Source: Luteibacter sp. dw_328
Lineage (GTDB): Bacteria > Pseudomonadota > Gammaproteobacteria > Xanthomonadales > Rhodanobacteraceae
Assembly (NCBI RefSeq): GCF_018449605.1
Contig: NZ_JAAVUW010000002.1
Location: 558,001 to 622,000, forward strand
Length of the DNA: 64,000 nucleotides
Direction: 5' to 3'
Under the pieces are notes generated by a model that saw nothing but the letters and a program-made list of their open reading frames with translations, had not been told where the DNA came from and did not search any database. Shown piece after piece: positions 18,205 through 26,951 of the stretch (position 1 is the stretch's first letter; every line of letters starts with the position of its first letter). Both the position numbers and the translations under genes were made by a program.

Positions 18205-18939
18205 ATGAGCACGAACAAGACAGCCATCGTCACCGGTGCCTCCAGTGGCCTTGGATTCGCCATCGCCAAGGCTTTCCTTGACCTCGGTTACAACGTCGTC
18301 GGTAACGCCCGCACCCAGGAGCGCCTCGACACGGCAGCGGCTGAACTCGGCAACCCGGACCGGTTCCTCGGCGTGGCGGGTGACATCAGCCTGCCGGAAA
18401 CCGCCGAGCGCCTGCTCGATCACGCGCTGGAAGCCTTTGGCCAGGTCGATGTGCTGGTGAACAACGCTGGCATTTTCGTCGCGCGGGATTTCATCGACTT
18501 CACCGCGGCGGAAATCGACTCGGTGATCGACACCAACCTGCGTGGCTTCATCTATCCCACCCAGGTCGTCGCTCGCCACATGGTCTCTCGCAACCAGGGC
18601 AGCATCGTCAACGTGACGGCATCGGTAGGCATGCAGCCGGATCGTAATGTCCCGGGCACGATGGCTGTGTTGACCAAGGGTGGGTTGAACGCCGTGACAC
18701 GTGGACTTTCGATCGAGCTTTCGCGCCATAACGTGCGCGTCAATGCCGTGGCGCCGGGCGTCATCGACACCCCGATGCACTCACCCGAGACACACGACTT
18801 CCTCAGTGGCCTGAATCCTGCCGGTCGCCTGGGTACGCCGGAAGAAATCGCCGAGGCCGTGGTTTACCTCGCGCAGGCTTCCTTCATCAATGGCGTGGTC
18901 CTGCCGGTCGACGGCGGCGGCACCGCCGGTCGCTGGTAA
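18205..18939 (+). CDS. Short-chain dehydrogenase/reductase-like protein lacking the catalytic tyrosine
   Basis: 244 residues, start at ATG 18205 with AGGAG ten bases before. A classical SDR fold is clear: TGASSGLGFAIA (NAD(P) binding, 10-21), NNAG (86-89), N111, S140 in VNVTASVG, K158, and the C-terminal NGVVLPVDGGGTAGRW. In the YxxxK motif the tyrosine position is A154 (PGTMAVLTKGGL), so the normal proton donor is absent. It may be an altered-mechanism enzyme, a binding protein or an inactive relative. Spaced eight bases before a tautomerase gene, and divergent from the LysR gene that probably controls both. Confidence 0.85.
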   Translation: MSTNKTAIVTGASSGLGFAIAKAFLDLGYNVVGNARTQERLDTAAAELGNPDRFLGVAGDISLPETAERLLDHALEAFGQVDVLVNNAGIFVARDFIDFTAAEIDSVIDTNLRGFIYPTQVVARHMVSRNQGSIVNVTASVGMQPDRNVPGTMAVLTKGGLNAVTRGLSIELSRHNVRVNAVAPGVIDTPMHSPETHDFLSGLNPAGRLGTPEEIAEAVVYLAQASFINGVVLPVDGGGTAGRW

Positions 18940-18947
18940 TCGCCAAC

Positions 18948-19160
18948 ATGCCCTACGTCAACGTTCGTATCACCAAAGAAGGCAATACGCCTGAGCAGAA
19001 AGCCCAGGTCATCGCCGAGATCACCGAGACTCTCGAGCGCGTCCTTGGCAAACCACCGGAGGTGACCTTCGTGGTCATCGACGAGGTGCCGATGGAGGAT
19101 TGGGGCTACAAGGGATTGCCCACGTCGAAGTTGCGGCCACCGAATCCCGGCCCGCTCTGA
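18948..19160 (+). CDS. 4-oxalocrotonate tautomerase family protein
   Basis: 70 residues. The start MPYVNVRITKEGNTPEQK places proline directly after the initiator methionine, so removal of Met exposes the catalytic Pro1 of the tautomerase superfamily. Length and the VTFVVIDEVPMEDWGYKG block fit the small 4-OT type subunit, which works as a hexamer or dimer in keto-enol conversions. It follows the SDR gene by eight bases and is followed by a strong terminator, so the two form a two-gene operon; the substrate is unknown. Confidence 0.88.
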   Translation: MPYVNVRITKEGNTPEQKAQVIAEITETLERVLGKPPEVTFVVIDEVPMEDWGYKGLPTSKLRPPNPGPL

Positions 19161-19172
19161 TTACCGACATCC

Positions 19173-19204
19173 AAAGCCGCTGACGAAACTCAGCGGCTTT
19201 TTTG
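19173..19204 (+). terminator. Rho-independent terminator after the SDR/tautomerase operon
   Basis: AAAGCCGCTGA-CGAAAC-TCAGCGGCTTTTTT: an 11-bp stem with a T-run, 12 bases after the tautomerase stop codon. Confidence 0.9.
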
Positions 19205-19310
19205 GTCCTTCGCGGAATGCCAGGGCGCCGAAGGGGTCGGTTCGCTCGCGTTGCGAGTGCGTGTTTTTAGCGGCTCGCGCGCCGCCGATTGCGTGAAGGG
19301 GTTAGGCGCA

Positions 19311-19452
19311 GAGCCTTCGGTGCCCACCCTCGCTGCTCAGACACGTCCTCCGCGTTTCGTAGCGGAAAGGCCGCTGCGCGGCCGTGTACTTATTTGGCCT
19401 ACGGCCGCTCCACTTGTGCGGAACTCGCCTCGAGGGTGGGCACCGAAGGCTC
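19311..19452 (+). repeat. 142-bp module with 22-bp terminal inverted repeats (A-left)
   Basis: Ends at 19311-19332 and 19431-19452 are perfect inverted repeats of 22 bases (beginning GAGCCTTCGGTGCCCACC). Inside are two further GC-rich palindromes (AAGGCCGCTGCGCGGCC and GGCCTACGGCC), so the single strand could fold into a branched structure. Confidence 0.88.
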
Positions 19453-19699
19453 TTCCCATCCTTGAGGTTCGTGCGGGTCGAGCCGACGAAGCAACGCCGC
19501 TTCGGCTGCTGGCGCGTCGCCATCGTTAAGCGGTCAACCGCGTCGCGCCGGTTGCGATCGTCCGCGCGAGGCAGCGCGGTGGCTACGAAGGCTCACCGAG
19601 GAGCCGGAAATGACATGCCAGCACGACCGCCGTAACGGCCCGCTTGGGCGGCCACACCCACGCCAACGGCTCTCCTTCCCGCTGACCGTATCGTCGTGA

Positions 19700-19841
19700 G
19701 AGACCTTGGTGTCCACCCTCGAGGCGAGTTCCGCACAAGTGGAGCGGCCGTAGGCCAGTTAGATACATGGGCCGCGTGAGCGGCCTTCCTTTTCGAACGC
19801 GGAGGACGTGTCTGAGCAGCGAGGATGGGGACCAAGGTCTC
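19700..19841 (-). repeat. 142-bp module with terminal inverted repeats (A-right, opposite orientation)
   Basis: Ends at 19700-19721 and 19820-19841 (beginning GAGACCTTGGTGTCCACC), near-perfect inverted repeats. Read on the minus strand, the interior matches A-left (GCGAGG/CTGCTCAGACACGTCC and the GGCCGCTC-ACTTGTGCGGAACTCG block). Confidence 0.87.
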
Positions 19842-19900
19842 CCCGCGAGACGCCCAAGTGTAAAGAGCGATGGCGCAAGCCGAGCCGCCCGCGAGCGGAC

Positions 19901-20105
19901 GCAGCAATACGCGAATCTTTCAATCGTTGGTGATAGGACGTCGTTGATCCTATGGAGAGAAGGCATTGGCCCGATCCATAGTCAGTCCCTATCGACCCCG
20001 TCACAAATATGAATTTCCCTTATCAGTCGACGGGACCTAACGTTGCACCCACGTCGCGGCCCCCACCGCACGCCTCTCCCACGAACACCAGCAAGGGTAA
20101 GACCC
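19901..20105. promoter_or_regulatory. Catalase promoter region with OxyR-type half site
   Basis: ATAG-TCAGTCC-CTAT at 19978-19992 is an exact ATAG-N7-CTAT element, the half of the OxyR recognition pattern. A second ATAG (19933) and CTAT (19950) pair lies upstream but with 13-base spacing. An AT-rich stretch CACAAATATGAAT at 20002-20014 could hold the -10 box, which would put the OxyR element at or just upstream of the -35 position, as expected for an OxyR-activated promoter. The start codon of the catalase is preceded by CAAGGGTAAGACCC. Confidence 0.6.
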
Positions 20106-21542
20106 ATGAGCAAGCTGACCACCGTATTCGGTGCCCCCGTCGCCGACGACAACAACACGATGACCGCCGGCCCGCGTGGCCCGGCCCTGCTGCAGGACGT
20201 CTGGTTCCTCGAGAAGCTCGCCCACTTCGATCGTGAAGTCATTCCCGAGCGCCGCATGCACGCCAAGGGCGCCGGCGCTTTCGGTACCTTCACGGTGACC
20301 CACGACATCACTCAGTACACCCGCGCGAAGATCTTCTCCGAAGTGGGCAAGACCACCGAGATGATGGCGCGGTTCTCGACCGTAGCCGGCGAGCGTGGCG
20401 CGGCCGACGCCGAGCGCGACATCCGCGGCTTTGCCATGAAGTTCTACACGGAAGAGGGCAACTGGGACCTGGTCGGCAACAACACCCCGGTGTTCTTCAT
20501 CCGCGATCCGCTGAAGTTCCCGGACCTCAACCATGCCATCAAGCGCGACCCGCGCACCGGCATGCGTAGCGCCGACAACAACTGGGATTACTGGACGCTG
20601 CTGCCCGAGGCCCTGCACCAGGTCACCATCGTGATGAGCGAGCGCGGTGTGCCGAAGTCGTTCCGCCACATGCATGGTTTCGGCAGCCACACCTATAGCT
20701 TCATCAATGCGAACAACGAGCGTTTCTGGGTGAAGTTCACCTTCAAGACCCAGCAGGGTATCCAGAACCTCACCGACGACGAAGCCGGGCAGGTGGTCGC
20801 CAAGGACCGCGAGAGCAACCAGCGCGACCTGTACGAGGCCATCGAGCGCAAGGAATTCCCGCGCTGGACGCTGTACGTGCAGATCATGCCGGAGGCCGAG
20901 GCGGCCAATACGCCGTACAACCCGTTCGACCTGACCAAGGTCTGGCCGCATGGCGATTACCCGCTGATCGAAGTCGGCTTCTTCGAGCTGAACCGCAATC
21001 CGGAGAACTTCTTCCAGGATATCGAGCAGGCCGCGTTCGCACCCGCCGTTATCGTGCCGGGCATCGGCTTCTCGCCGGACAAGATGCTCCAGGGGCGCCT
21101 GTTCTCCTACGGCGACACGCAGCGCTACCGTCTGGGCGTGAACTATGCGCAGATCCCGGTGAATGCCCCGCGTTGCCCGGTCCACTCGTATCACCGTGAC
21201 GGCGCGATGCGCGTCGACGGGAACGGGGGTGGCTCGACGAGCTACGAGCCGAACAGCCGTGGCGCCTTGCAGGCCCAGCCGGACTTCTCCGAGCCGCCGT
21301 TGGAAATCGGCGAGACGGTGGCCAAGCGCTGGAATCATCGCGAAGACACCGACTACTTCTCGCAGCCGCGCAAGCTGTTCGAAATGATGAGCCCGGCGCA
21401 GAAGCAGACGCTGTTCGATAACACGGCCCGCGCCATCAAGGGTGCCTCGCAGCCGGTGGTCCAGCGTCATATCGACAACTGCACGGCCTGCCACCCGGAC
21501 TACGGCAAGGGCATCGCCGACGCGGTGGCGAAGCTCGGCTGA
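20106..21542 (+). CDS. katA: Monofunctional haem catalase, small-subunit type
   Basis: 478 residues, the size of clade 3 small-subunit catalases, which degrade hydrogen peroxide to water and oxygen. Catalytic H52 lies in [14 protein letters not shown], the distal asparagine in [13 protein letters not shown] (125-126), and the proximal haem tyrosine in [20 protein letters not shown]-binding residues typical of this clade are around [12 protein letters not shown]. No signal peptide, hence cytoplasmic. The start at 20106 ([12 protein letters not shown]) follows a purine-rich site; a GTG/ATG 21 codons upstream gives an arginine-proline-rich front without family support. It heads the haem/peroxide cluster with hemA, hemH and oxyR and has an OxyR-like site upstream. 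The symbol is by type; katB or another name is equally possible. Confidence 0.95.
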
Positions 21543-21552
21543 TAGCACGGTA

Positions 21553-21585
21553 ACAACAGAGGGGCCGGAAACGGCCCCTCTTGTT
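21553..21585 (+). terminator. Terminator hairpin between catalase and hemA
   Basis: AACAGAGGGGCC-GGAAAC-GGCCCCTCTTGTT forms a long GC-rich stem with a short T-rich end, 11 bases after the catalase stop. It could end most catalase transcripts while letting some reading reach hemA 24 bases further on, allowing unequal expression in one unit. Confidence 0.75.
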
Positions 21586-21608
21586 CAGGCAAGAACGACG
21601 AGGCAACC

Positions 21609-22868
21609 ATGGTCGACTACCTCTCTTACTTCGAACGCAGCATCGACGCCCTCAAGCAGGAGCGCCGGTACCGCGTGTTCGCCGACCTGGAACGCCAGGT
21701 GGGTCGGTTTCCGAAGGCCATGCTCCACGGGGCGGATGGCGCGAAGGAAGTCACCGTCTGGTGTTCCAACGACTACCTCGGCATGGGTCAGCACCCGGAC
21801 GTGATCCAGGCGATGAGCCACGCTGCACGGACCATGGGCGCCGGCGCGGGCGGGACGCGGAACATCTCCGGCAACCACCACGCAATTATCGAACTCGAGG
21901 ATGAACTGGCCGATCTGCACGACAAGGAGGCCGCACTGGTCTTCACCTCGGGCTATGTATCCAATCTTGCCGGTATCGCAACGATAGCCCGGCTCCTGCC
22001 GGATTGCGTGATCCTGTCGGACGCGCTGAACCACAATTCCATGATCGAGGGGGTACGCGCCTCGGGTGCCGACAAGCGCATCTGGCGTCACAACGATCTG
22101 GCACACTTGGAAGATCTCCTGGTTCGCGCAGGAAATCGACCGAAGCTGATCGCCTTTGAAAGCGTCTATTCGATGGATGGAGACATCGCGCCCATCGGGG
22201 CTATCTGCGATCTCGCCGAAAAGTACGACGCGATGACCTATATCGACGAAGTGCATGCCGTGGGCATGTACGGATTGCGCGGCGGTGGCATCGCCCAGCG
22301 TGAGGGCGTGGCACACCGCATCGACGTTATCGAGGGGACGCTGGCAAAGGCTTTCGGCACGTTGGGCGGGTACATCGCGGGTCGCAAGGCCGTCGTAGAT
22401 GCGGTGCGTTCGCACGCGCCCGGTTTCATTTTCACCACCACGCTGCCGCCGCCGGTCGCAGCAGCAGCCACGGCGTCGGTCCGCCATCTCAAGGCGTCGC
22501 AGTCGGAACGGCAGGGACAGCAGCAGGCGGTGCATGCGACCAAGGCCGCGCTGGCTTCTTCCGGTTTGCCGCTCATTCCGAGCGAAACCCATATCGTGCC
22601 GCTGCTGGTCGGCGACGCTGACCTGTGCAAGCGGGCGAGCGACCTGCTGCTCGATCGCCACGGCATCTACATCCAGCCGATCAATTATCCCACCGTGCAG
22701 CGTGGCACGGAGCGCCTGCGCATCACGCCCACGCCTTTCCACGATGCGGCACTGGTCGAACAGCTCAGGCGGGCCCTCGTCGACGTCTGGAATGAACTTG
22801 GCCTGCCGCTCGGCAAGCCGGTGGCCGAGCGCGACCATCCTTCGCTCACGGTAGCCGCCGGAGGCTGA
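21609..22868 (+). CDS. hemA: 5-aminolevulinate synthase (C4/Shemin pathway)
   Basis: 419 residues. A PLP enzyme of the alpha-oxoamine synthase family that joins glycine and succinyl-CoA to give 5-aminolevulinate. Family text is specific to ALAS rather than to KBL or Bio[67 protein letters not shown], the PLP lysine in [16 protein letters not shown], and the C-terminal [22 protein letters not shown]. Gammaproteobacteria normally form ALA from glutamyl-tRNA, so this gene is unexpected and is probably from a horizontal source such as an alphaproteobacterium. It ends two bases before hemH and is the first gene of hemA-hemH-oxyR. Here the symbol means ALAS, not glutamyl-tRNA reductase. Confidence 0.94.
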
Positions 22869-22870
22869 CT

Positions 22871-24001
22871 ATGACCGCCACAGACCCGAACACCGCGCTG
22901 TTCCACGCATGGGAGCCGCCCCAGCGGCGAATGCCCACCACCAGCACAGCGAGCCTGCCCCGATCGACGCTGCGTCCACAAACACAGGCAGCCACTCCGG
23001 TCACCCGAGGCAAAGTCGGCATCCTCCTCTCCAACCTCGGCACGCCCGACGGCACCGACTACCGCTCTGTCCGTCGCTACCTCGCGGAATTCCTCTCCGA
23101 CCAGCGCGTGATCGAACTGCCGAAGCTCGTCTGGCAGCCCATTCTCCAGGGCGTCGTGTTGTTGCGCCGGCCCGCGGTCAAAGGCAAGGACTATGAACGC
23201 ATCTGGAATCACGACCTCGACGAGAGCCCGTTGAAAACCGTGACCCGAAACCAGGCGACAAAACTGGCGTCCTGGGCGGCAGAGATATTTGGAGAGGACC
23301 GGGTGGCTGTCGATTGGGGTATGCGCTATGGCAACCCGTCGATCGAGGACGCCGTGGTTCGTCTTATGTCGCAGGGATGCGAGCGACTCCTGATGTTTCC
23401 GCTCTACCCGCAGTATTCGGCAACGACCACGGCAACAGCCAATGACCGGCTGTTCGAGGTGTTACGAGGCTTGCGCAACCAGCCGGCAGTTCGCGTGGTG
23501 CCGGCGTACTTCGATGAGCCGGCGTATATCGAAGCCCTGGCCCGTTCAGTGCGGACGACACTGGAAAGGCTCGCGGAGGAGCCCGAGGTGATCGTTGCTT
23601 CCTTCCATGGTATTCCCCAGCGCAACATCGCCCTCGGCGATCCCTATTACGAGCAGTGCCAACACACCGGCGAGTTGCTTCGCGATGCACTGAATCTGCC
23701 GGCGACGCGGTTCCGTATCAGCTACCAGTCACGATTCGGCTATGCGGACTGGCTGCAGCCGTATACCGAGGCCACCATGCGTCAACTCGCTCACGAGGGT
23801 GTCCGTCGCATCGCGGTCATTTCTCCCGGCTTCGCAGCGGATTGCATCGAGACGATCGATGAGATCGGTCGCGAGAACGCCCACTACTTTCGGGACGCTG
23901 GCGGCGAGGCATTTACGCTGATTCCTTGCCTTAACGACAGCGACGATGGCATGGCGGTGCTGTGCGACCGCGTGCTGGAGGAGACGCAGGGATGGCTGTG
24001 A
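22871..24001 (+). CDS. hemH: Ferrochelatase
   Basis: 376 residues. Inserts Fe2+ into protoporphyrin IX, the last step of haem synthesis. Conserved blocks are LLSNLGTPDGTDYRSVRRYL, the YPQYSATTTATA segment, the metal-site histidine in VIVASFHGIPQRN, and SPGFAADCIETIDEI with the conserved acidic pair. The first 45 residues (proline/serine/threonine-rich) are an extension of no evident role; a second in-frame ATG at codon 21 is possible, but the start at 22871 lies two bases after the hemA stop and suggests coupling. It overlaps oxyR by ten bases. Confidence 0.94.
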   Translation: MTATDPNTALFHAWEPPQRRMPTTSTASLPRSTLRPQTQAATPVTRGKVGILLSNLGTPDGTDYRSVRRYLAEFLSDQRVIELPKLVWQPILQGVVLLRRPAVKGKDYERIWNHDLDESPLKTVTRNQATKLASWAAEIFGEDRVAVDWGMRYGNPSIEDAVVRLMSQGCERLLMFPLYPQYSATTTATANDRLFEVLRGLRNQPAVRVVPAYFDEPAYIEALARSVRTTLERLAEEPEVIVASFHGIPQRNIALGDPYYEQCQHTGELLRDALNLPATRFRISYQSRFGYADWLQPYTEATMRQLAHEGVRRIAVISPGFAADCIETIDEIGRENAHYFRDAGGEAFTLIPCLNDSDDGMAVLCDRVLEETQGWL

Positions 24002-24948
24002 AGCATGCGACCCGCCAGGATCCGGCCAGCGAACGTGGCAACCTCGCAGGGCTGTCATTGCGCGATCTGGAATACGTCGTTGCCGTGGCGGATCTTGGAA
24101 ACTTCATGCGTGCGGCCGAGCGCTGCCACGTCACCCAGCCCTCGCTTTCAGTGCAGATTCGTCGAGTGGAGGAGCGGTTGGGGACGGTGATCTTCGAGCG
24201 GACCACGCGGAAAATCCTGGTCACGGAGCAGGGCGCCCGCCTCGTGGAACAGATGCGCAAGATACTTGTGGAAGGGAGACGTCTGCTGGATATCGCGTCG
24301 CGCCCGGAGCATGCCTTCGGCGGCACGTTGCGGCTATCGGCCATCGCTACGCTCGGGCCCTACTACTTCCCATACGTTCTGGCGGATATCCAGAAGGCCT
24401 TCCCGGCTGTATCCCTCGAACTCGGCGAAGGGAAGACGGACGATCTTGTCCATGCGCTGCTTCGCGGCGAACTCGACGTCGTGCTGATGTCCGCGCCGGT
24501 CACCCATACGCAGGTGAGCTGCGTTGCGGTTTTTCAGGAGCCCTTCTGGCTGGCATGCCGTGAGGATCATCCGGCAAACACGGAAACCGGGGATCTCTGG
24601 GCATCGCTGAAGCCTCGCGAGCGGCTCTTGCTGGAAGAAGGCCACTGCCTGCGCGAGCAGGCGCTGGCCGCGTGCGACGACGTTGCTCCCGATCAGCGCC
24701 AGGGCACGAGCCTGGAGACGCTGCGCTATATGGTGGCCGCTGGTGAAGGCTGCACGCTCATGCCGCAGCTGGCGACGACGCGCGTGCAGGGCATGCGCTA
24801 TCTGCCGCTACCGGACGATTTTGCCCGGACTATCGTGCTGGCATGGCGCAAGTCGGACCAGCGCGCGGATGATTTCCGCGCGCTGGCTCAGACACTTCGG
24901 GAGGTGAGACATCCGCGGCTTGTTGCGGATTCCGATTTTCGCGAGTAA
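23992..24948 (+). CDS. oxyR: Hydrogen peroxide-sensing regulator OxyR
   Basis: 318 residues, LysR family. The winged helix-turn-helix starts at about 21 (LSLRDLEYVVAVADLGNFMRAAERCHVTQPSLSVQIRRVE; shown only in part as NFMRAAERCHVTQPSLS). The redox pair is intact: C219 and C228 in LLLEEGHCLREQALAACDD, the same nine-residue spacing as C199-C208 of E. coli OxyR, so peroxide sensing by disulfide formation is expected. Start chosen at 23992 (MAVKHATRQD), within the end of hemH; the N-terminus carries about 20 extra residues. Location at the end of a haem operon beside catalase suggests direct control of that cluster. Confidence 0.95.
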   Translation: MAVKHATRQDPASERGNLAGLSLRDLEYVVAVADLGNFMRAAERCHVTQPSLSVQIRRVEERLGTVIFERTTRKILVTEQGARLVEQMRKILVEGRRLLDIASRPEHAFGGTLRLSAIATLGPYYFPYVLADIQKAFPAVSLELGEGKTDDLVHALLRGELDVVLMSAPVTHTQVSCVAVFQEPFWLACREDHPANTETGDLWASLKPRERLLLEEGHCLREQALAACDDVAPDQRQGTSLETLRYMVAAGEGCTLMPQLATTRVQGMRYLPLPDDFARTIVLAWRKSDQRADDFRALAQTLREVRHPRLVADSDFRE

Positions 24949-24967
24949 TGGTACCGCTGCCGCGGGA

Positions 24968-24988
24968 TCGCCGATGAATCGGCTTCTA
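24968..24988 (-). repeat. Single REP-like element
   Basis: TCGCCGATGAATCGGCTTC-TA, one base different from the 21-base consensus found elsewhere (T for C). Lies between the converging oxyR and ester hydrolase genes, preceded by CTGCCGCGGGA, the same spacer seen in the paired elements. Confidence 0.85.
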
Positions 24989-25007
24989 CCGAGCGGGGCG
25001 CTCGTTA

Positions 25008-26951
25008 CTATTTGACGACCGGTAGTTCTACAAACGTTCCGTTACTGCCGTCCCGCACGACCTTTTGCGTTGCCTTGCGATAGTCGCTGGGCTTTGCATT
25101 GAAGATGTTAGGCACGAACGTCTGTGGATTCCGGTCATACAACGGGAACCAGCTGGACTGGATCTGCACCATGACACGATGGCCGGGCTGGAACACGTGG
25201 TTCACCGTGGGCAAGGGAAAACGGTAATCCAGCGGCTTGTCCGGTGTGAGTGCGGCGGGTTTGTCGTAGCCCTCGCGGTAGCGGCCGCGGAAAATCTCCA
25301 TGGCGATCGGTAGCTGGTATCCACCCATTGACGGCTTGTCTTCCACTTCATCCGGGTAAACGTCGATCAGTTTGACCACCCAGTCGCTGTCCGTACCGCT
25401 GGTCGAGGCGAGCAGATGCACCAGCGGTTCGCCGGCGACACCCATCGGCTTGTCCAGTACGGGGGAAACATAAGTGAGCACGTCGGTCCGCGTGGCGAAC
25501 TGGCGCTGGTCGTCCACCAGCCACTCGGGCCAGCTATCCACCTGGTCGGGCGCGCCGTGTGACCACGCCTGGATGGGGCGTACGCGATAGGGCACCGGCT
25601 TGGCGGGGTCGGAGACGTAATCGTCCGAGCCCTGGGACGGAGCCGCAACACCGAGGCCGCCATCGGCTTCCGCATACCAGCGCTGCATCGCCGGGGCACA
25701 ACCCGAGCGACAGGCGGACGGCCACGTATCCAGTTTGCGCCACGTGTTATCGCCGGTAACGAAGGCATTGACCGGCGCGATATTCGCTTTCGGCGCATCG
25801 TCCTTCAGGTACTGGGCGAGGAAGGGGCGCAGGATCTCCTGACGAAAGGTCGTGCCGGTATCGCTGCCCAGATCGAGTGCGCCGATGGTGTTCGCCTTCT
25901 CCCAGGTCTTGGCATGCCGCCATGGCCCGATGACAAGCCACACCTTCTTGTGCTCGGGATCGCGCGGCGCGAGTGCCCGATAGACGGCCATATCACCGTA
26001 GTTGTCTTCCTGGTCCCACAGGCTGTGCACGAGCATGGTCGGCACGGTCATGGGTTCCTTCGCGGCGATCTTATCGAGCGCCTGCCCGGACCAGAAACTG
26101 TCATACGCGGGGTGTGCGAGCACCTTCTGCCAGAAGCCGAGCGCCTCCATACCGTAAGCGCGGCCGATATCGCCGGCCGAGCCGCCACGCAGGTAGAGGT
26201 CGTAGTCATCGCGGTAGCCGCTGGACCAGCCGATGTTGCTCTCGCGCGAGTTCACCATGCCGTAGATGTAGGGAATCATCTGCTGGCGGAACGCCCCGCG
26301 GTGGAACCAGTCATCCCCCATCCAGCCGTCGATCATCGGGTTGATCGGCACAGCCACCTTGAGGGCGGGATGCGGATGGATCGTGGCGATCATCGCCTCG
26401 AAGCCGTCGTAGGAGATGCCGATGATGCCGACCTTGCCGTTCGACTCCGGCACGTGTTTCACCAGCCAGTCGATGGTGTCGTAGATGTCCGAGGATTCAT
26501 CGATCGGCGTCGGGTTGCCAGGGCCGACTGGCGGCCGGTTCATCACGAAGTCGCCCTGGGAGCCGTGCTTGCCGCGGATGTCCTGGATAACCCGGATGTA
26601 GCCGTCCTGGACGATCACGTCGGACGGGTTGTCGTAGCCGCGCAGGGTGGGTCCGAGGTGCGGACTGTCCGCCCGATGCCCCATGCCGTCGGCGCCGTAA
26701 GGTGTGCGTGTGAGTAGCATGCCCGCGCGTTTCGCGCCCTTGGGCAGCAGGATCACCGTGTGCAGCGTCACCCCGTCGCGCATGGGGATGTCGACCGTGC
26801 GGCGTTCGAAATCGAACCCTGCATTCGTCGGTGTGAAATGGGCCGGCGTTTCCGTCGGCAGATTGTCATAGGTCTTCTCGCCGCCGACCGCCGGGGTCGC
26901 GAGGACCCCGGCGGCGAGCGCGACGATACCCAGTCGCAGTAGTGCGTGCAT
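25008..26951 (-). CDS. Alpha-amino-acid ester hydrolase / CocE-NonD family (S15) hydrolase
   Basis: 647 residues with signal peptide MHALLRLGIVALAAGVLATPAVG, so periplasmic. An alpha/beta-hydrolase of the X-Pro dipeptidyl-peptidase (S15) class: nucleophile S180 in IGISYDGFEAM, then PHPALKVAVPINPM and DGWMGDDWFHRGAFRQ, which I know from the Xanthomonas alpha-amino-acid ester hydrolase, including its acidic cluster; catalytic histidine in VIGPWRHAKTWE. A C-terminal jelly-roll domain follows (LVHLLASTSGTDSDWVVKLI). Such enzymes hydrolyse or transfer the acyl group of amino-acid esters and amides, including beta-lactam side chains; the natural substrate is unknown. It starts ten bases after the stop of a TonB-dependent receptor gene, so both are co-transcribed. 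Confidence 0.87.
   Translation of the reverse strand: MHALLRLGIVALAAGVLATPAVGGEKTYDNLPTETPAHFTPTNAGFDFERRTVDIPMRDGVTLHTVILLPKGAKRAGMLLTRTPYGADGMGHRADSPHLGPTLRGYDNPSDVIVQDGYIRVIQDIRGKHGSQGDFVMNRPPVGPGNPTPIDESSDIYDTIDWLVKHVPESNGKVGIIGISYDGFEAMIATIHPHPALKVAVPINPMIDGWMGDDWFHRGAFRQQMIPYIYGMVNSRESNIGWSSGYRDDYDLYLRGGSAGDIGRAYGMEALGFWQKVLAHPAYDSFWSGQALDKIAAKEPMTVPTMLVHSLWDQEDNYGDMAVYRALAPRDPEHKKVWLVIGPWRHAKTWEKANTIGALDLGSDTGTTFRQEILRPFLAQYLKDDAPKANIAPVNAFVTGDNTWRKLDTWPSACRSGCAPAMQRWYAEADGGLGVAAPSQGSDDYVSDPAKPVPYRVRPIQAWSHGAPDQVDSWPEWLVDDQRQFATRTDVLTYVSPVLDKPMGVAGEPLVHLLASTSGTDSDWVVKLIDVYPDEVEDKPSMGGYQLPIAMEIFRGRYREGYDKPAALTPDKPLDYRFPLPTVNHVFQPGHRVMVQIQSSWFPLYDRNPQTFVPNIFNAKPSDYRKATQKVVRDGSNGTFVELPVVK

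Follow-up and report, generated by a model that had tools for sequence, protein, structure and literature searches.

The window analysed here, a 64-kb stretch of the genome of Luteibacter sp. dw_328 (contig NZ_JAAVUW010000002.1, positions 558,001 to 622,000), carries in one row genes for a catalase (katA), a 5-aminolevulinate synthase (ALAS), a ferrochelatase (hemH2) and an OxyR-like regulator. We propose, with a probability of about two in three, that they constitute a laterally acquired accessory cassette coupling haem supply to catalase under H2O2. A first-pass annotation of this DNA had already read the four genes as a peroxide–haem module, and this part of the claim is strengthened by the recurrence of the module in distant genomes, by conserved OxyR-type boxes and by selection on every gene. 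Its further claim, that the entry and exit steps of the organism's own haem pathway are concentrated at this locus, is not supported, since a glutamyl-tRNA reductase (GluTR), another ferrochelatase and a canonical OxyR sit elsewhere in the genome. The layout that it described is borne out: all four genes lie on the plus strand at the coordinates given below, ALAS and hemH2 are separated by 2 bases, hemH2 and oxyR overlap by 10, both redox cysteines of the regulator are present, and an exact ATAG-N7-CTAT element precedes katA.

20106-21542, plus strand: katA, monofunctional haem catalase of 478 amino acids (PF00199, 635 bits; 829 bits to the solved catalase 2isa)
21609-22868, plus strand: accessory ALAS of the Shemin pathway (TIGR01821, match to a solved ALAS, module-ALAS clade)
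22871-24001, plus strand: hemH2, accessory ferrochelatase (TIGR00109, module-HemH clade)
23992-24948 (ATG at 23992), plus strand: module OxyR-like regulator of the LysR family, with C219 and C228 (profile, alignment and tree)
19978-19992, plus strand: putative OxyR-type box ATAG-N7-CTAT, exact match, 128 to 114 bases 5' of the katA start codon
21558-21581, plus strand: GC hairpin 3' of katA with a 10-bp stem and without a clear T run, seen by folding (terminator-like, attenuator or processing element)

Additional copies and their origin

The assembly that contains the window (G000; 5.05 Mb, 99.95% complete) holds a single match over the ALAS family cut-off, which is the window gene. GluTR, the entry enzyme of the C5 pathway, is encoded on another contig (420 bits); a second ferrochelatase (311 bits) scores above hemH2, and the gene of a canonical OxyR (349.9 bits) is transcribed divergently from an AhpC-like one. 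According to PMC11480375 (2024), alphaproteobacteria and most eukaryotes rely on ALAS, and other bacteria on the C5 route. This organism thus has a C5 entry enzyme plus an added Shemin enzyme, the C5 route being judged here by GluTR and not by its second enzyme, hemL. At E <= 1e-120, and with the own genome included each time, ALAS was detected in 2 of the 147 genomes sampled from the family, in 8 of 398 from the order and in 4 of 369 from the class. The order-wide survey scored four candidates per genome, and 3 of the 20 genomes of the genus listed in it have ALAS. GluTR was found in G000, G426, G437, G125, G178, G089 and G604, and in the gammaproteobacterial genomes tested the module-type or catalase-adjacent ALAS is an addition to C5 in five out of five (G000, G426, G437, G125 and G178). 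No GluTR match at E <= 1e-40 was obtained in Bradyrhizobium erythrophlei GAS478 or in G165. The latter (locus L120), a genome of the same order, has ALAS and no catalase in the 18 kb read, and its C5 entry enzyme may have been replaced by ALAS.

In an ALAS tree made by a quick method from 50 of 100 extracted rows (the named loci and 33 random ones, with two duplicates), the module copies fall into one clade of 12 rows (10 distinct) with an SH-aLRT support of 96; it unites the window genus, G125 and the Bradyrhizobium modules, apart from ordinary Bradyrhizobium ALAS. In the HemH tree, which covers 23 of 24 named rows (the Halomonas row was removed by the length filter), the module proteins form a clade supported at 99/97 that is nested among the HemHs of Alphaproteobacteria and remote from the copy native to this genome, and the window OxyRs fall with the GAS478 type and with Ensifer canadensis (98), away from housekeeping OxyR. 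Because ALAS, HemH and OxyR each cluster with module copies from Alphaproteobacteria and not with the organism's own, they are, on these trees, extra and foreign copies, probably acquired laterally from Alphaproteobacteria, the direction of transfer being one that we infer. The ALAS of G125 is nearest to that of GAS478, which suggests more than one transfer. A recent import that would be visible in base composition was considered and rejected, the GC content being flat at 0.60-0.65 over 15-30 kb.

Family assignments are firm for the three enzymes. KatA exceeds the gathering score of PF00199 and has a close solved relative in 2isa, as a monofunctional haem catalase should; the window ALAS reaches 645 bits against a TIGR01821 cut-off of 338.55 and aligns over its full length to the solved ALAS 7x98 (530 bits; residues 2-400 of 7x98); and hemH2 reaches 274.8 bits against 124.6 for TIGR00109. 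The regulator, with 232.9 bits, remains under the NCBIfam OxyR equivalog cut-off of 329 (NF008361), and it is therefore called OxyR-like, a separate subfamily and not an OxyR equivalog. In E. coli OxyR the redox pair is numbered C199/C208, and C219/C228 of the module, nine residues apart, has the same spacing; it is kept in all 11 module sequences aligned (the window and 10 others). These 11 also have in common cysteines at window positions C189 and C254, which are missing from the two non-module OxyRs aligned, as well as C45, which one non-module GAS478 OxyR has too, and their redox loop is three residues shorter than in the non-module OxyRs aligned. C189/C254 and the shorter loop mark an OxyR subfamily that usually adjoins catalase in the loci read. 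At the end of KatA (window 21480-21500) there is a CXXCH-like sequence, CTACH, at the place where 2isa has CYKAD, and this is probably due to chance.

Recurrence of the module and variation at one site

The first-pass annotation had named a gene order limited to one strain as the outcome that would tell against the module, and the full order is found in two further genomes. In the same genus, G426 (L118) has all four genes in the same order, with identities of 98, 93, 82 and 87%, and in B. erythrophlei GAS478 (L012) the full order is collinear, with 83, 77, 57 and 62%; GAS478 also carries a second katA–ALAS pair (L014). Between G000 and G426, dN and dS are 0.010 and 0.411 for katA, 0.042 and 1.067 for ALAS, 0.077 and 1.127 for hemH, and 0.074 and 1.153 for oxyR, and all four genes are under purifying selection.

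The genus is represented by 23 genomes, and the site, which is flanked by an autotransporter/LysR/SDR group on one side and by a CocE hydrolase and a TonB receptor on the other, was read in 21; the comparison of contents covers genomes other than G101, G112, G033, G133, G143, G396, G123 and G076. Besides the two complete modules, G089 has katA–hemH–oxyR with no trace of ALAS; katA stands alone in G369, G010, G047 and G392; and in G338, G371, G1002, G400 and G062 the autotransporter adjoins the hydrolase with nothing between. Module parts clearly come and go at this site, where katA may be older than the haem genes, or the others may have been lost.

In Bradyrhizobium, module-type OxyR occurs at E <= 1e-75 in 8 of 195 sampled genomes, one of which is GAS478 with its four collinear genes. 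G952 and G878 have katA–ALAS–hemH with oxyR on the opposite strand about 2.1 kb away, G991 has katA–ALAS with a divergent oxyR, G961 katA with a divergent oxyR, G832 and G957 katA–hemH–oxyR with ALAS fragments, and G834 oxyR, a short ALAS and hemH, with no katA in the 18 kb read. ALAS is thus decayed or shortened in three Bradyrhizobium modules (L133, L134 and L138), in which hemH and oxyR are kept, with katA in two. Across Alphaproteobacteria, with five candidates scored per genome, 3 of 385 sampled genomes have module-type OxyR at E <= 1e-65, and the two besides GAS478 have catalase beside OxyR, with no match to ALAS, hemH or hemC. Plasmids carry related arrangements, of which five loci were chosen as examples, and not as a count, from 15 listed among the 4131 records that gave a match. 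On the conjugative plasmid pT173a of Ensifer canadensis (L217, 3680-7912), katG–hemC–oxyR joins another haem step, hydroxymethylbilane synthase, to another catalase type; on a plasmid of Pseudoroseomonas cervicalis (L218, 4216-8924), oxyR is divergent from catalase–hemC–hemH; and on two Azospirillum plasmids and one from Rhizobium, OxyR adjoins catalase in stretches that carry no annotated hem gene.

A genome search made with ALAS alone kept the best 80 loci, of which 69 include 2 kb on either side, and catalase lies within 2 kb in two of these best 80, both in GAS478 and both in the module clade. Over 106 ALAS matches, duplicates included, nine distinct loci lie less than 500 bases from a catalase, and three catalase types are involved. 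KatA is the neighbour in the window, G426, GAS478 (twice), G952, G991 and G878, the last three of which were found via OxyR and are not independent evidence for the linkage to catalase. In G125 the neighbour is a catalase with a signal-like N terminus, judged by eye, and 46-47% identity to KatA, and in G178 (L121, 7012-10709), which belongs to another family of the order and also has GluTR, ALAS lies directly 5' of katG. As the G178 ALAS falls outside the module-ALAS clade, its link to catalase looks independent. ALASs of the module clade without a catalase beside them are those of G437 and Bradyrhizobium cenepequi (L023), and no catalase match was obtained at five other gammaproteobacterial ALAS loci read (G165, G370, G604, G617 and G545).

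Candidate OxyR boxes and transcript structure

The box at 19978-19992 is the only exact ATAG-N7-CTAT in the window. Matches with one mismatch number 4 against 3.67 expected, so that only the exact box carries weight, which comes mainly from its conservation in relatives. It lies 5' of katA in 9 of 15 loci (G000, G426, G089, G369, G047, G392, GAS478, G832 and G957), about 120-130 bases before the start and with changed spacer letters; for Bradyrhizobium (L012, L133-L139) these distances are off by a few bases, being counted from a point up to three codons away from the true start. Exact boxes also lie close 5' of oxyR in GAS478, G832, G957, G991 and G878. In G437 a katA-promoter-like region with an exact box stands directly 5' of ALAS, and in G125 ALAS is preceded by an exact box at a distance of about 100 bases and the catalase by another at about 95, which are 2 of the 20 exact sites in its genome. 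As background, the 79 other loci of the best-80 ALAS set hold three exact boxes (L015, L052 and L069).

Of the 11 exact boxes of the own genome, one is that of katA, a second separates oxyR from the AhpC-like gene (which scores 151 bits against a cut-off of 272), and a third is found some 90 bases 5' of a Dps-like gene (77 bits against 114). In E. coli, OxyR targets include AhpC, Dps and catalase (PMC8115020). For the other eight no such neighbour was recognised, most of them being judged by eye, and the regions of 7.0 and 7.5 kb that surround the housekeeping genes for GluTR and ferrochelatase contain no exact box. The OxyR target consensus consists of tandem ATAGntnnnanCTAT sites, according to an excerpt of PMC10580950; the candidate site is a single ATAG-N7-CTAT at 19978, and inspection by eye shows no clear repeat of it seven bases further along. 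Further upstream of katA, window 19306-19846 holds nested inverted repeats (72 nt, 88%; 51 nt, 86%), at whose place G426 and G089 carry other hairpin repeats by eye, and these are perhaps dispersed repeat elements.

The spacing of ALAS, hemH2 and oxyR fits one operon. The hairpin that follows katA may be a terminator with read-through, or a processing site that would give more katA than haem-gene mRNA. In the other loci folded (G426, G089 and those of Bradyrhizobium), stems of other letters occur 3' of katA. The idea that the hairpin is a special device of the module was dropped, since katA-only G047 has a strong stem as well.

Proposed mechanism, alternatives and known systems

The model proposed here is that H2O2 would activate OxyR (the module's own, the housekeeping protein or both), which would act at the 19978 box and raise katA, and that ALAS, hemH2 and oxyR would be raised as well, either because transcription reads through the katA hairpin or as a result of processing. 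ALAS would make 5-aminolevulinate from glycine and succinyl-CoA and thus by-pass GluTR. In enteric bacteria GluTR undergoes haem-controlled breakdown, a control that ALAS would avoid. At the other end of the pathway, hemH2 would add ferrochelatase capacity at a step that can become limiting under peroxide, when less free iron is present. Both hemF and hemH are induced by OxyR in E. coli, hemH because ferrochelatase may become a bottleneck at low ferrous iron (PMC8115020). The extra haem would load KatA, and both ends of the pathway would be served at once by dedicated genes. The enzyme activities, the induction by H2O2, the binding of OxyR, the read-through, the haem flux and a catalase limited by haem in this organism are predicted parts of the model, for which the evidence is genetic and comparative.

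Several observations weigh against this proposal. The genes of the middle of the haem pathway are not part of the cassette, and katA may be uncoupled from the other three genes by the hairpin that follows it. At the genus site G437 has ALAS–hemH with neither katA nor oxyR, ALAS has been lost repeatedly (it is absent in G089, fragmented in G832 and G957, and shortened in G834), and G604, which has GluTR, carries an ALAS with no catalase in the region read around it, so that an added ALAS can exist without catalase. The exact box is missing within 400 bases of katA in 6 of the 15 loci (G010, G952, G991, G961, G878 and L014), and it is not enriched genome-wide: G000 has 11 copies of it and 15 of the reversed control, and in G125 these counts are 20 and 26. 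Finally, three katA-only congeners keep the box without oxyR beside it, and it need therefore not answer to the module OxyR.

It could be argued that catalase and OxyR are the functional unit, and that ALAS and hemH2 travel along and serve general haem supply, or haem supply when GluTR is shut by feedback. In that sense can be read the loss of ALAS from several loci in which hemH and oxyR, mostly with katA, are kept, the strong hairpin 3' of katA, and two negative results in the window: ALAS is preceded by no further exact box of its own, and no sigma-70-like promoter was found in 18900-25100 (1.2 expected in shuffles). This explanation is nevertheless unlikely, at perhaps one chance in five, because the katA-type box region stands directly before ALAS–hemH in G437, the ALAS of G125 has an exact box of its own, and ALAS adjoins unrelated catalase types. 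A chance pile-up of four uncoupled genes at a site that collects foreign DNA would agree with the variable contents between autotransporter and CocE hydrolase (nothing, katA alone or module parts); it is very improbable and was dropped on recurrence and selection, as the same partners recur in the same order in Bradyrhizobium, and in other orders and with other catalases elsewhere, and the gene overlap, the 2-base gap and the strong purifying selection also argue against it. Least probable of all is that ALAS feeds a secondary metabolite with a C5N unit, as do the cyclising ALASs of actinomycetes described in the available part of PMC4525017, to which 417-bit matches in G370 and G382 may, as a guess, belong; this was dropped on the ALAS tree, where the window enzyme groups with rhizobial ALASs and is split from G370 and G382 by a branch of support 100, and its neighbour is a ferrochelatase, with no amide synthetase or acyl-CoA ligase among the seven profile-scanned proteins of 17.2-27.0 kb.

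The preferred reading, an accessory cassette that couples haem supply to catalase, can be extended, tentatively and at slightly less than even odds, to a mobile class of peroxide-triggered haem-surge cassettes in Proteobacteria. In these, a catalase (KatA, KatG or a secreted one) and an OxyR of a distinct subfamily would recruit the haem steps that limit the host (ALAS, hydroxymethylbilane synthase or ferrochelatase), and in C5 organisms the foreign ALAS would override feedback-controlled GluTR and thereby let the entry to haem synthesis, its exit and catalase increase jointly. If this is true, catalase in nature is limited by its haem supply strongly enough for that supply to be packaged and exchanged between bacterial classes, and the one-step ALA synthase acts as a by-pass under stress in organisms already equipped with the C5 route. 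The natural variants at one genus site, with or without ALAS, katA and oxyR, let the haem step that limits catalase under peroxide be tested directly. Within the literature covered (titles and abstract openings, with few subscription papers), no catalase–ALAS–ferrochelatase–OxyR cluster is described, and likewise no mobile foreign-ALAS cassette in a C5 organism.

The control of hemH and hemF by OxyR in E. coli reportedly goes back to Mancini and Imlay (2015) as the primary paper. In B. subtilis, the PerR-controlled katA and hem genes lie at separate loci, and the hem enzymes are those of the C5 route. There, as proposed for the window, catalase is coordinated with haem synthesis, PerR controlling katA together with the early steps hemAXCDBL (PMC5189952, PMC8115020); unlike the window, the regulator is PerR and not OxyR, and ferrochelatase is placed outside the regulon in the excerpt of PMC8115020. 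The E. coli system is similar in that OxyR raises ferrochelatase and catalase (katG) in peroxide stress, and it differs in having separate chromosomal genes, no ALAS and no added gene set, with the first haem step not among the targets given in that same excerpt (PMC8115020). Phage cassettes that combine an ALAS gene (valaS) with hemO and pcyA/X likewise represent a mobile extra ALAS, able to replace the C5 step in a mutant; in contrast, their context is the bilin pathway, and the part of the source available mentions neither catalase nor OxyR (PMC11480375). The alphaproteobacterial plasmids share a catalase adjoining an OxyR of the same subfamily (divergent in Azospirillum, and also found in Rhizobium), and they differ by the lack of an annotated hem gene in the stretches shown. 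The regulatory logic, the co-regulation of peroxide defence and haem, is known, and its packaging as a cassette appears to be new within the literature covered.

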